NCBI RefSeq assembly: GCF_003287355.1
Contig: NZ_QMIM01000039.1
Span: forward strand, 1 to 40,606
Length of the DNA: 40,606 bases
Direction: 5' to 3'
DNA from: Halorubrum sp. 48-1-W
GTDB taxonomy: Archaea; Halobacteriota; Halobacteria; Halobacteriales; Haloferacaceae
The position numbers were made by a program, and so were the translations under genes. Below are positions 19,092-24,064 of this stretch, one piece after another. Position 1 is the stretch's first letter, and every line of letters starts with the position of its first letter. Below the pieces are notes generated by a model. That model searched no databases, had not been told where the DNA came from, and saw nothing but the letters and a program-made list of their open reading frames with translations.

Positions 19092-19793
19092 TCAGTCGGC
19101 CGCTTCGGGCTCCTCTACCGCGACAGCCTCGGCCGCCGCCTCGGCTTCAGCCTCCGCTTTCGCCTCCTCCTCTTCCTTCTTCGCTTTGATCTTCTTCAGC
19201 CGGAAGATCTCCTCGCGCTCCTGTTCCTCGAGCTTCTGTTCGATGTACTCCTGGTTCTCGTAGAGCTGGGGGAGGAGGGTGAACTCGAGTGCGTTGACGC
19301 GACGCTTCGTCGTCTCGATCTCCTCCAGCATCTTCTTCATCGCGGTCTCGACCTCGGCCGCGAGGATGACCGACTCGAGGAGCTCCTCGTAGGCGTCGGC
19401 CGCCTCGTCGATCCGCGCGGAGGAGCCGAGCAGGCCGTACCCGCGCTCGTCGAGGCTCTTTCTCACCTTCGAGGACTCGATCTGTGGGACGACGACGCCC
19501 ATGATGTTCTTCGACTGGGTGGTGATCTCGGGGTGCTCTTTCAGCGCCGCGGCCGCGCCGCGGACCGCGACGTCGCCCTCCATCGCGCGGGCCATGTCGA
19601 TCTTGCGCTGGGCGGTCTCGTAGTCCTCGGCCACCTCCGACCGGACGTCCTGGGCCTGATCGAGGATGTCCATGAACTCCATGATGAGGCCGTCACGCTT
19701 CTGTTCGAGCGTGTCGTGGCCCCGCTCGGAGAGCTCGATCCGGTCTTCGATCGCCATCAGGTTCTTCCGGGTCGGTTTGACGTCCTTTGCCAT
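19092..19793 (-). CDS. atpD: A-type ATP synthase subunit D
   Basis: A 233-residue central-stalk subunit; it couples the membrane rotor to the A/B catalytic head. The opening Lys-Pro-Thr-Arg-Lys-Asn-Leu, the long N- and C-terminal helices predicted as a coiled coil, and a middle segment with Arg-Gly-Tyr-Gly-Leu-Leu-Gly all fit the family. The C-terminus is a haloarchaeal-style Ala/Glu-rich extension. The gene is separated from atpB by bat and bop (about 2.8 kb), an unusual place. A TATA-like region (19821-19834) suggests its own promoter. Confidence 0.96.
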
Positions 19794-19834: not shown

Positions 19835-19864
19835 GATCGCTCAGGAACGCCGGGTCGGGAGCTG

Positions 19865-19960
19865 GCGACACGCGATGTACGACGCGATCCACGGCGGGCG
19901 ACACGCGATGTACGACGCGATCCACGGCGGGCGACACGCGATCCACGGCGGGCGACACGC
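19865..19960. repeat. 33-nt tandem repeat with a shortened third copy, between bop and atpD
   Basis: A 33-nt unit beginning GCGACACGCGATGTACGACG occurs at 19865-19897 and 19898-19930. A third copy at 19931-19951 lacks 12 internal bases, and a 9-nt partial copy ends at 19960. It occupies much of the 228-nt spacer between bop and atpD. Confidence 0.92.
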
Positions 19961-20021: not shown

Positions 20022-20765
20022 TCAGTCCGCCGGGCTCGCCATCGCCGATCCGGCGGCGTCGAGCACGTCGCGGCTCGACAGCAGGATGATGCCGAACCCG
20101 ACCTTCGCGACCAGGTCGAGCACCATGAACCCGGCCGTCTCGATGTTCAACGAGACGATCGTGAGGCCCTCGGTCCCGAGTATCCACCAGACCGGGTAAA
20201 CCAGCCAGACGACGACGATCAGCGTCCGCAGGGTGCTGAACGTCGAGGCCGCCTGACCGGACAGCTGGCTCGCCTTCTCGTCGAGCGAGCCGTACAGCAT
20301 GTACAACAGGACGAGCAGGAAGCCGGTCGAGACGCCCCACCAGACCAGGCGCTGGCCGCCGGCCGAGAGCACGGCGGCGCTGGTCGACAGCGTCGCGACC
20401 GCGCCGGTGCCGATCATGAGCACGTCGAGCCCGACCAGCGAGGCGATCTGGTTACGGTTCGCCCCGACGAGAAGGCCCAGGTCGACGAGCAGAAGCGGCG
20501 TCGTGAAGAGCCAGTCCGTGTAGCGTGCCCAGTAGATCGGCACCTCCTCGCCGCCGAGCGTTATCGTCGTCAGTCCGAAGCCGAGCGCCATCGCGAGGTA
20601 GTTGACGAACGCGATGGCGGTGATGAATATCGTGACGATATAGAACTCCTGACGGCGCCTGTTCGTCTCGCCCCATCCCCTGGCGATGAAGTACAGCATC
20701 CCCAGGAACATTCCGAGGGTGCCGATCCAGAGCCACACACCTTCGGTACCAGGTTGTGCTGTCAT
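20022..20765 (-). CDS. bop: Bacteriorhodopsin/archaerhodopsin, light-driven proton pump
   Basis: A 247-residue seven-helix retinal protein. All proton-pumping residues of bacteriorhodopsin have counterparts: Arg81 (R82), Asp84 acceptor (D85), Asp95 donor (D96), release-site Glu199 and Glu209 (E194, E204), Asp217 (D212) and the Schiff-base Lys221 (K216). The helix C string [11 protein letters not shown] and the N-terminal part resemble the archaerhodopsins of Halorubrum most closely. Leu92 (L93 in bacteriorhodopsin) suggests green/yellow rather than blue absorption. It lies 79 nt downstream of bat on the same strand, and upstream of atpD. A separate promoter is likely. No retinal-synthesis gene (brp/blh) is in the window. 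Confidence 0.97.
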
Positions 20766-20794: not shown

Positions 20795-20800
20795 TCTAAA
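20795..20800 (-). promoter_or_regulatory. TATA-like box of bop
   Basis: TTTAGA on the minus strand ends 29 nt before the bop ATG, which predicts a transcript with only a few leader bases, as known for Halobacterium bop. Confidence 0.5.
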
Positions 20801-20808
20801 CGACATAC

Positions 20809-20822
20809 GTAACTGGTTAGGG
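20809..20822 (-). promoter_or_regulatory. Candidate Bat-responsive upstream element of bop
   Basis: The minus strand reads CCCTAACCAGTTAC directly upstream of the TATA-like box. It partly fits the Halobacterium bop upstream activator consensus as I remember it (ACCcnactagTTnG): four of the six invariant bases match, and most other positions do too. It is a candidate only; the match is imperfect. Confidence 0.35.
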
Positions 20823-20844: not shown

Positions 20845-22536
20845 CTACCGTTCGAACAGCGCCGTCGTGAGCTTTCGCTCCGCCGCCCTGAGGTGTTGGT
20901 GAAACGTCGACCGGGAGACGCCCATCGACTCAGCGAGGTCGTCGCCGCTCGTCCCGTGTGGCCACTCGAAGTAGCCGGCGGTGTGGGCACGGAGCAACGC
21001 AGCGTGCTGGCGGTCCGTCAGTCGAGACTTGAGGTCGGAAACGAACGCGTGATGGGTCTCGCGTCGTCGCTCGCAGCGTTGATAGCCGACCAGGTCCACG
21101 TGCTCGAAGCGCTCCATCGCGGCGTCCGCGAGCGACCGGGCGAGCGCCTCCCGCCCGACCGCGAGCGTCACCCGGGTGACGCTCCCGTCGACCGCCCAGT
21201 CGCACAGCTCGCCGCTGTACTCCCGCAACAGGTCGTGGAGTGGGTCCTCGTCGATCGACAGCTCGATCACGGGAACGTCCTGCTCGACGCCGACGAGCCC
21301 GTGAACGGTCACCGGGGTCCCCTCGACCGCCGTCCGTACCGTCTCTGCGTCCACCTCCGTGGCGTCGTCGAGTTCGAACAGCATCGACGGCACCGTACGG
21401 TCCCCGACCGTTCCAACGTACCGGAGCCGACACGAGAGGACGTCGGCGAGATCCACCAACGGGTGGTCGGCCATGGCCAGCCGGAACTCGACGACCTCGT
21501 CGTCGTGGAGGGTCCGGTGGCTCTCGATTGCGTTGATGCCGGTCGCGACGGTCCGCCCCAGCGCCGTCAGGACGTCCCGCTCGTGGCTATGGAACTCCGT
21601 CGTGCGGACGTACACCGCGATGGCCCCGTAGGTCGCGTCCCCGAAGTGAAGGGGGACGCCCGCGACGGCGGCCGTACCCTCCGGCGCGCTCGATCCGACC
21701 GGCTCGATGTGGACGTACCGGCCCTCGATCGCGTCGGCGATCACCGTTTCGACGCCCTCGACAGCGGTTCCGTCGAGGGGAAACCGACGCCCCACGACGT
21801 CGGGATCGGTCGTCCCCTCGGCGACCTGGGGGACGATCGCGTCCGCCACGGGGTCGTGCCTGCCGACCCACGCGCCGGCGTACGTGTCCGCGAGGCGGGC
21901 GGCGACATCGCGTTCGAGCTCCGTCAGCGAGGACGCGCGGGTGACGGCCTCGGAGACGTCGGTGACGACGCCGTCGATCCGCTCGAGCAAGTGTTCCTGG
22001 GCGACGCGTTCCCGATCGATCCGCGTAGCGCGGGTCGCGGCCGCCCGCTCCGCGCGCTTACGGCGTGTGATGTCCTGCTGGAAGCCGACGTAGTGGACGA
22101 CCTCGCCGTCGTCGTCCCGGAGGGGGGCGATCGTCACCTCGTTCCAGAACAGCTCGCCGCTCCGCCGGTAGTTGCGCAGCTCGACGGTCGTGGCCTCCCC
22201 GTTCTCGATGGCGGTACGCATTCGGTGGACCGGCTCGTCGCAGGTCGCCTCGCCCTGGAGGAACCGACAGTTCCGCCCGACCGCGTACGAGGGCGAATAC
22301 TCGGTGATACGCTCGAAGGCAGCGTTCGCGTAGATCAGCGGCATGTCCGATCGGGTCGCGTCCGCGATGGTGATCCCCACCGGTGCCTCGTCCATCGTAC
22401 GGGTCTTCAACGCCTCGTCGACGACGGCGGTACTCGCCGACGGCGCCGGGTTCCCCTCCCGTGAGCTCCGTTCGATCGCGGGCTCCGGATCGACGCTCGA
22501 CGCCGGATCGACGTCCGACGCTCCCGATCGTGTCAT
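20845..22536 (-). CDS. bat: Bat-type bacterio-opsin activator with LOV, GAF and HTH_10 domains
   Basis: A 563-residue transcription regulator. Order: disordered N-terminus, a PAS/LOV domain (about 45-165), a short coiled linker, a GAF domain (about 185-330), a Bat-specific domain (about 345-500) and a C-terminal HTH_10 DNA-binding domain (about 505-563, with Leu-Thr-Asp-Arg-Gln and Gly-Val-Ser-Arg-Ser-Thr). The LOV core has the full photoactive motif Gly-Arg-Asn-Cys90-Arg-Phe-Leu-Gln, plus the flavin-contact Asn and Gln residues in Arg-Asn-Tyr, Phe-Trp-Asn and Gly-Phe-Gln-Gln. Bat proteins activate bop; the position directly upstream of bop fits. Light or oxygen input is inferred from the domains. 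Confidence 0.93.
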   Translation of the reverse strand: MTRSGASDVDPASSVDPEPAIERSSREGNPAPSASTAVVDEALKTRTMDEAPVGITIADATRSDMPLIYANAAFERITEYSPSYAVGRNCRFLQGEATCDEPVHRMRTAIENGEATTVELRNYRRSGELFWNEVTIAPLRDDDGEVVHYVGFQQDITRRKRAERAAATRATRIDRERVAQEHLLERIDGVVTDVSEAVTRASSLTELERDVAARLADTYAGAWVGRHDPVADAIVPQVAEGTTDPDVVGRRFPLDGTAVEGVETVIADAIEGRYVHIEPVGSSAPEGTAAVAGVPLHFGDATYGAIAVYVRTTEFHSHERDVLTALGRTVATGINAIESHRTLHDDEVVEFRLAMADHPLVDLADVLSCRLRYVGTVGDRTVPSMLFELDDATEVDAETVRTAVEGTPVTVHGLVGVEQDVPVIELSIDEDPLHDLLREYSGELCDWAVDGSVTRVTLAVGREALARSLADAAMERFEHVDLVGYQRCERRRETHHAFVSDLKSRLTDRQHAALLRAHTAGYFEWPHGTSGDDLAESMGVSRSTFHQHLRAAERKLTTALFER

Positions 22537-22639: not shown

Positions 22640-24064
22640 TCAGTCCGCGGCTTCGACGACTTCGCGCTCGGAGTCGTCCTCTCGGTAGTACTCCTCGATG
22701 AACTCCTCGTCGACGCGGTTGAGCTCCTCCTTCGGTAGCATCGAGAGGAGGTCCCAGCCGATATCGAGCGTCTCCTCGAGGCCGCGGTCCGTCTCGAAGC
22801 CCTGGTCGATGAACTCCGTCTCGAAGGCGTCCGCGAAGTCGAGGTACTTGTTGTCGCGCTCGGAGAGCGCCTCGCGGCCGACGATGTTCACGAGGTCGCG
22901 AAGGTCCTCGCCCTCCGCGTACGCCGCGTACATCTGGTCGGAGACGCCGCCGTGATCCCCGCGGGTCAGTCCCTCGCCGATCCCGTCGTCCATCAGCCGC
23001 GAGAGGCTGGGGAGGACGTTTACCGGCGGCTCGAGCCCCTGACTGTTCAGGTCGGGGTCGACGTAGATCTGTCCCTCGGTGATGTACCCGGTCAGGTCCG
23101 GGATCGGGTGGGTGTCGTCGTCGCCGGGCATCGTGAGGATCGGGATCTGCGTGACGGAGCCCTCACGGCCCTGTATCCGACCCGCGCGCTCGTACAGTTG
23201 CGCCAGGTCGGTGTACATGTACCCGGGGTAGCCACGCCGGCCCGGAACCTCCTCGCGGGCCGCGCCGATCTCGCGGAGCGCCTCGCAGTAGTTCGTCATG
23301 TCCGTGAGGATGACGAGCACGTGGTAGTCCTTCTCGAAGGCGAGGTACTCGGCCGTCGTCAGGACCATCCGCGGGGTGACCGTCCGCTCGACGGCTGGGT
23401 CGTCCGCGAGGTTCATGAAGACGACGGAGCGCTCCAACGCGCCGGTGCGCTCGAAGTCCTCCATGAACTCGTTGGCCTCCTCCTGGGTGATCCCCATCGC
23501 GCCGAAGATGACGGCGAACTCCGAGCCCTCCTCGTCGTCGCCCTCCTCCTCCTCCTCGGGCACGCTCGCCTGCCGGGCGATCTGCATCGCCAGTTCGCTG
23601 TGCGGCTGGCCCGAACTCGAGAAGATCGGGAGCTTCTGGCCTCGAACGAGGGTGTTCATGCCGTCGATTGCGGAGACACCCGTCTCGATGAACTCCTCGG
23701 GGTACTCCCGGGAGTACGGGTTGATCGCCGCGCCGACGATGTCCTGTCGCTCCTCCGGGACGATCTCCGGACCGTCGTCGATCGGGCGGCCGGAGCCGTC
23801 GAGCACCCGCCCGAGGAGGTCCTCGGTGACGGGCATCTTCATCGTCTCGCCCAGGAAGCGGACGGACGCGTTCTGGTCGATACCGGAGGTGCCCTCGAAG
23901 ACCTGGATGGCGACGACGCCCTCCGAGGACTCGAGCACCTGACCGCGCAGCGTCTCCCCCTGTGCCGTCTCGATCTCGACGATCTCGTCGTAGCCGATCG
24001 CCTCGTCGACCTCGGCGTACACGAGGGGGCCGCTGATCTCGGTGATGGTTTGATACTCTTTCAT
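22640..24064 (-). CDS. atpB: A-type ATP synthase subunit B (non-catalytic head subunit)
   Basis: A 474-residue regulatory nucleotide-binding subunit that alternates with A in the head. It matches family members from the N-terminal [12 protein letters not shown]ough [10 protein letters not shown] (the altered P-loop) and [10 protein letters not shown]. A Glu/Asp-rich insert after the altered P-loop is a halophilic trait. Its ATG is three bases beyond the atpA stop. It is the last atp gene before bat, with 103 nt in between; a short T run (GCTTTTC) follows about 15 nt after the stop and could weakly terminate. Confidence 0.98.

Follow-up and report, generated by a model that had tools for sequence, protein, structure and literature searches.

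Bat of Halobacterium salinarum is among the closest described systems. It is a bop-linked protein composed of PAS/LOV, GAF, BAT and HTH_10 domains that regulates bop via a UAS, and two papers confirm the existence of this Bat UAS (PMC1502140, PMC1447603). Light induction of bop in this species requires Bat, Brz and Brb together (PMC3184054), and since bop is light-responsive there despite a Bat with His at the adduct position, adduct chemistry is dispensable for the light control of bop in general. The absence of the photo-adduct cysteine from H. salinarum Bat is recorded in a LOV catalogue (PMC4844311), and the studied Halorubrum Bat has a Pro (PMC4682037). Direct light sensing by Bat has been suggested, not established (PMC4682037), and was examined in Bats without this cysteine. 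Also already known are (i) Cys-bearing LOV-HTH proteins of Halobacteria (2014), (ii) a haloarchaeal LOV photocycle (2025), observed with the isolated archaeal LOV domain in 3 M salt (PMC12202551), and (iii) the atpB-atpD location: bop, accompanied by bat in some strains, was earlier reported between these genes (Verma 2020, PMC7755889).

Here, a 40,606-nt stretch of DNA from Halorubrum sp. 48-1-W (contig NZ_QMIM01000039.1; the window) was analysed. Domain anatomy, residues, conservation, synteny and boxes were established directly, and on the sequence evidence it is quite probable that the Bat protein of the window is a true LOV photoreceptor combined with an archaeal activator, which would place both light-driven pumps under flavin-based blue-light/redox control.

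Genetic organization of the bat-bop locus

The bat gene (positions 20845-22536) belongs to the gene order atpB-bat-bop-atpD, in which all four genes lie on the reverse strand and are separated by 103, 79 and 228 bp. The outer genes encode A/V-type ATP synthase subunits, i.e. subunit B upstream of bat (atpB; 22640-24064) and subunit D on the downstream side (atpD; 19092-19793). The light-driven pump that the earlier note had placed beside Bat was identified as the bacteriorhodopsin-type proton pump bop (20022-20765; 247 aa; Pfam PF01036, 4e-67; nearest PDB chains 4pxk, cruxrhodopsin-3), located 79 bp downstream of bat on the same strand.

Adjacency of bat and bop was found in four GTDB genera of the close family, and in more at about 40% identity, and the insertion of the pair between atpB and atpD is common to many genera. 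Haloarcula-like genomes carry bop between atpB and atpD without bat, several genomes carry bat there without bop, and in many genomes a Bat with the cysteine (Cys-Bat) is present with no bop nearby. Because of the last group, bop is not the sole role of Cys-Bat. The first two groups favour another explanation, in which Bat senses blue light and has main targets other than bop, the adjacency being inherited and bop being co-expressed with the ATP-synthase operon. Transcription of bop from the promoter of that operon could also occur, and HmBRI of Haloarcula is reported to be constitutive (PMC7755889, citing Fu 2010). The promoter sequences described below speak against this explanation.

The gap between bop and atpD contains perfect tandem repeats (positions 19864-19960; a 33-bp unit present 2.4 times and a 21-bp unit present 2.2 times). 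Elsewhere, in a relative (genome G095, L065), bop carries an in-frame TGA and the adjoining Cys-Bat is intact.

Domain structure and modelled fold of Bat

Bat is a 563-aa LOV-GAF-BAT-HTH_10 regulator, whose four Pfam domains all score above cut-off (PAS_9, 4e-22; GAF_2, 8e-8; BAT, 6e-14; HTH_10, 2e-20). The LOV domain, supported by PDB LOV matches, pLDDT and VIA-align, comprises residues 46-160 (22057-22401, reverse strand), which bears out the complete LOV domain that had been read earlier at 22040-22410, inside the 20845-22536 frame. Its pLDDT is ~94 in an AlphaFold whole-protein model built on 39 Bats. The secondary structure of this model contains a predicted long signalling helix (residues 157-200; 21937-22068, reverse strand) connecting LOV to GAF, and the DNA-binding HTH_10 domain (Pfam PF04967) occupies residues 506-557 (20866-21021, reverse strand).

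The LOV sequence matches LOV photoreceptors of the PDB with E-values down to 3e-34, and the NCBIfam YtvA blue-light receptor family at 1e-39, the latter score being under the whole-protein cut-off of that model because the remainder of the protein differs. Comparison of the modelled domain with solved LOV domains in VIA-align gave a Z of ~20 and an rmsd of ~1 Å over 105-125 residues, placing it in the PAS/LOV fold, and the top matches include photoactive LOVs in their dark and light forms. A PAS domain other than LOV, bearing a fortuitous Cys, was rejected on the basis of the YtvA-family match and the fold comparison to LOV structures. It is hardly credible that Bat is degenerate or unexpressed, given a frame open over its full length, four domains over the Pfam cut-offs and the mean identities of the HTH (76%) and LOV (81%) parts reported below.

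The adduct motif and the flavin pocket

Residues 87-94 of Bat read GRNCRFLQ, in agreement with the adduct motif GXNCRFLQ, and the putative flavin-adduct cysteine, Cys90, is encoded by the TGT codon at 22267-22269 (this and the following codons on the reverse strand). This cysteine and the flavin-ring contacts listed in the earlier note are all as given there, the latter being Asn122 of RNY (22171-22173; AsLOV2 N482), Asn132 of FWN (22141-22143; AsLOV2 N492) and Gln153 of FQQ (22078-22080; AsLOV2 Q513, the flipping glutamine); Asn89 is kept too. In a comparison with AsLOV2 and YtvA sequences, Bat was found to have the equivalents of Avena LOV2 N449, C450, R451, L453, Q454, V463, R467, N482, N492, G511 and Q513. 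The pocket differs from that of Avena LOV2 at V416 (Thr in Bat), T418 (Ala), N425 (Met), I466 (Met), F494 (Val) and V512 (Phe), and these differences from plant LOV2, which may alter the speed of a photocycle, are family traits, since they are conserved inside the Bat protein's own family. Judged by its residues, the domain is a canonical LOV domain with every adduct and flavin-contact residue, for which flavin chemistry is predicted.

A chance occurrence of the motif was rejected, as G.NCRFLQ is present once in the six frames of the window, NCRFLQ was obtained in none of 200,000 protein shuffles, and the domain matches LOV structures of the PDB. An extra cysteine is found at residue 99 (22240-22242), 9 residues past Cys90, at a position occupied by Arg in 25 of 29 orthologues.

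Conservation and distribution of the adduct cysteine

Cys90 is invariant in the close orthologues of Bat (29/29), whereas the remaining cysteines, 99, 369, 445 and 488, are kept in 1, 22, 11 and 3 of the 29, respectively. The mean identity of these orthologues to the window Bat is 81% for LOV, 76% for HTH, 51% for GAF and 49% for BAT; by this measure constraint within the protein falls on the LOV sensor, which is best conserved, and on the terminus that binds DNA, and the retention of Cys90 and the LOV residues by selection is supported.

The wider survey covered 391 Halobacteria genomes, of which 253 encode a Bat at E ≤1e-60; a Cys-bearing Bat served as the query, and the same search nonetheless retrieved the Pro and His types. 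When LOV residues were aligned over the Bat homologues, as had been proposed together with the original observation, the adduct position of 95 full-length Bats was Cys in 79, Pro in 14 and His in 2. The earlier note had contrasted the window Bat with the usual Bats. This contrast is real but reversed, the textbook Bats being probably the derived ones, and the idea of an unusual Cys-bearing exception was rejected on the same figures. With its Cys, the window Bat has neither the His of H. salinarum nor the Pro of the Cys-less Halorubrum subtype.

The two His Bats, both GANHRFLQ, are those of H. salinarum and its sister; the former genome was identified as H. salinarum by its 100% identity match to the bacteriorhodopsin query of that species, a match seen in one genome. 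Twelve of the 14 Pro Bats represent a second Halorubrum Bat type (GRNPRFLQ), and 20 further proteins of that type have Pro as well (32 genomes checked). The window-type Bat is present in 11 Halorubrum genomes and the other type in 34, with both in G354 only; G393, which has the second type, also encodes a more distant Cys-Bat amid its ATP-synthase genes. The partner of the window-type Bat is a cruxrhodopsin-like bop, and that of the Pro-type Halorubrum Bat, where near, is an archaerhodopsin-like opsin ~3 kb off. A third Halorubrum Bat paralogue (G248, G369) is probably not a flavin photosensor, because it reads GENPRLWQ and no longer has Asn132 or Gln153.

In a quick tree built without the Cys column, the root of which was not inferred, the His and Pro clades are nested among the Cys Bats, with a minimum of 3 changes. 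Cys being the majority state, the simpler reading of these sequences is that His in H. salinarum and Pro in the other Halorubrum type are derived, by loss of the Cys and not by its gain elsewhere. The Cys accompanies an intact phosphate site, as the FMN-phosphate arginine (equivalent of AsLOV2 R467) is present in 73 of the 79 Cys-Bats and in none of the Pro (0/12) or His (0/2) Bats.

These distributions bear on the explanation that the LOV domain is mainly a flavin redox (oxygen) sensor, in which Cys90 is ancestral and its light chemistry incidental. Such a role would suit the Cys-less Halorubrum Bat-LOV, which binds flavin and changes shape upon flavin reduction (PMC4682037), and H. salinarum Bat, which is oxygen- and light-responsive without the Cys (PMC2253796). 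A functionless cysteine would be expected to drift like the other four of Bat, yet this one persists throughout the close orthologues and in most of the wider set (79/95), and the FMN-phosphate arginine was lost along with it in both Cys-less clades. A mainly redox-sensing LOV domain is, in our estimation, unlikely, and a photoreceptor remains the preferred reading.

An activator-like box before bop and halorhodopsin

The box CCTAACCAGTTACGTA (20806-20821, reverse strand), which ends 40 nt before the bop ATG at a position conserved in other bop promoters, looks like the UAS of H. salinarum bop; the TATA-like sequence TTTAGA follows ~30 nt before the ATG (20795-20800, reverse strand), at the same position in related promoters. 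The general form of this upstream region is CCNNACYRGTTNNGTA, then the TATA-like element. Boxes were scored against ACCcnactagTTnGG, taken here as the consensus of the H. salinarum bop UAS, and the window box matches it at only 9 of 12 positions. Of the tandem loci, 44 of 47 had at least 9 of 12 matches to this presumed consensus; the corresponding figures were 9 of 11 for convergent and 6 of 7 for Pro-type loci, compared with 9 of 36 bop genes without a nearby bat and ~3% of shuffled sequence.

The box and its TATA-like element thus occur chiefly where bat is near bop (44/47 vs 9/36), which argues against a Bat whose main targets are other than bop. The same holds for the Halorubrum genome G226 (L052, L154), in which an intact Cys-Bat lies beside atpD and neither bop, hop nor an exact box was found genome-wide. 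A Bat with main targets other than bop, adjacent to it by inheritance, is in our estimation very unlikely, and regulation of bop by Bat is preferred.

In the 3.58-Mb genome of the window, the exact box pattern occurs twice, before bop and, on another contig (G000:C36:101892-101907, L042), 39 nt before halorhodopsin (hop; PDB match, E 4e-109). In ten bop-bearing Halorubrum genomes of the window type, 17 of 21 exact sites precede bop (10) or hop (7), and the reversed pattern, used as a control, gave 2 sites vs 29 for the exact box in all 16 genomes. The shared box links Bat, through predicted binding, to both the proton and the chloride pump, and suggests their joint control. The earlier proposal that Bat tunes the adjoining pump is thus strengthened by synteny across genera and by the conserved activator-like box before bop, but was drawn too narrowly, as the loop probably includes halorhodopsin too.

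A second bop copy (L041, 17356-18117 of G000:C16), 82% identical, lacks the box. A LOV-Bat of its own was considered for this copy and rejected: the only Bat-like protein, ~9 kb off, shows 25-28% identity and no LOV motif, and a 2651-codon open frame lies between the two. In G078, G261 and G304 (L202, L203, L204), where bat is present and no bop or hop was found, a similar box precedes the gene of a conserved 50-residue zinc-finger protein (MSQCNHCDAFVSRNF...), which is reminiscent of the small regulator Brz.

Proposed mechanism

In the mechanism that we propose, blue light would be absorbed by oxidised flavin in the LOV pocket, and the flavin and Cys90 would form a reversible adduct. Gln153 would reorient, the signal would leave the domain via its C-terminal strand and travel along the signalling helix (157-200) to GAF, BAT and HTH_10, and the HTH would alter its action at the boxes before bop and halorhodopsin. 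As the flavin can also be reduced, it may report the redox or oxygen state too, and Bat could combine both kinds of sensing. We infer flavin binding, the adduct, the DNA target and the regulation; by analogy with H. salinarum, light likely leads to activation. For the proposal that one blue-light LOV activator serves bop and halorhodopsin via matched boxes, and that independent loss of the Cys around H. salinarum and in many Halorubrum turned this photoreceptor into a redox-type sensor, we see an even chance.

Comparison with known systems

H. salinarum Bat, alike in domains and bop linkage, differs in its adduct position (His) and in the absence of the phosphate arginine, and in the sister genome G023 the Bat of this type is located outside the ATP-synthase operon, with bop divergent. 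BAT-LOV* of Halorubrum hochstenium (Yee 2015, PMC4682037), the only report found in a literature search for Bat and LOV, is likewise a Bat in which a LOV-like domain that binds flavin is combined with GAF and HTH, but it carries a receiver domain as well and has Pro in place of the adduct cysteine. The archaeal LOV-HTH proteins of Halobacteria (Losi 2014, PMC4844311) combine a Cys-bearing LOV with GAF and HTH, one arrangement being Bat-like; in its accessible text, however, this catalogue does not deal with bop linkage, an activator box or a Cys/Pro/His split. A haloarchaeal LOV with GXNCRFLQ and a high-salt photocycle shown in 2025 is ALovD-1 of Lake Diamante (PMC12202551), but it was studied as a LOV domain alone, apart from output and targets. 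The same atpB-atpD arrangement was described by Verma 2020 (PMC7755889), where the insertion is treated as random and the accessible part of the text does not cover LOV residues or the box. In the open-access literature searched, we found no account of how Cys, Pro and His are distributed among bop-linked Bats, of the phosphate arginine being lost together with the Cys, or of the shared bop-hop box.

If the proposal is true, haloarchaea gain a flavin-to-rhodopsin control circuit. The near-exclusive split within Halorubrum, 11 Cys-type vs 34 other-type genomes, constitutes a natural experiment on light vs redox sensing, in which each genome offers two predicted target promoters and C90 a ready mutation site. 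The value of the locus beside the described systems lies in this natural comparison of Cys, Pro and His Bats, by which the old question of whether Bat itself sees light is now directly testable.
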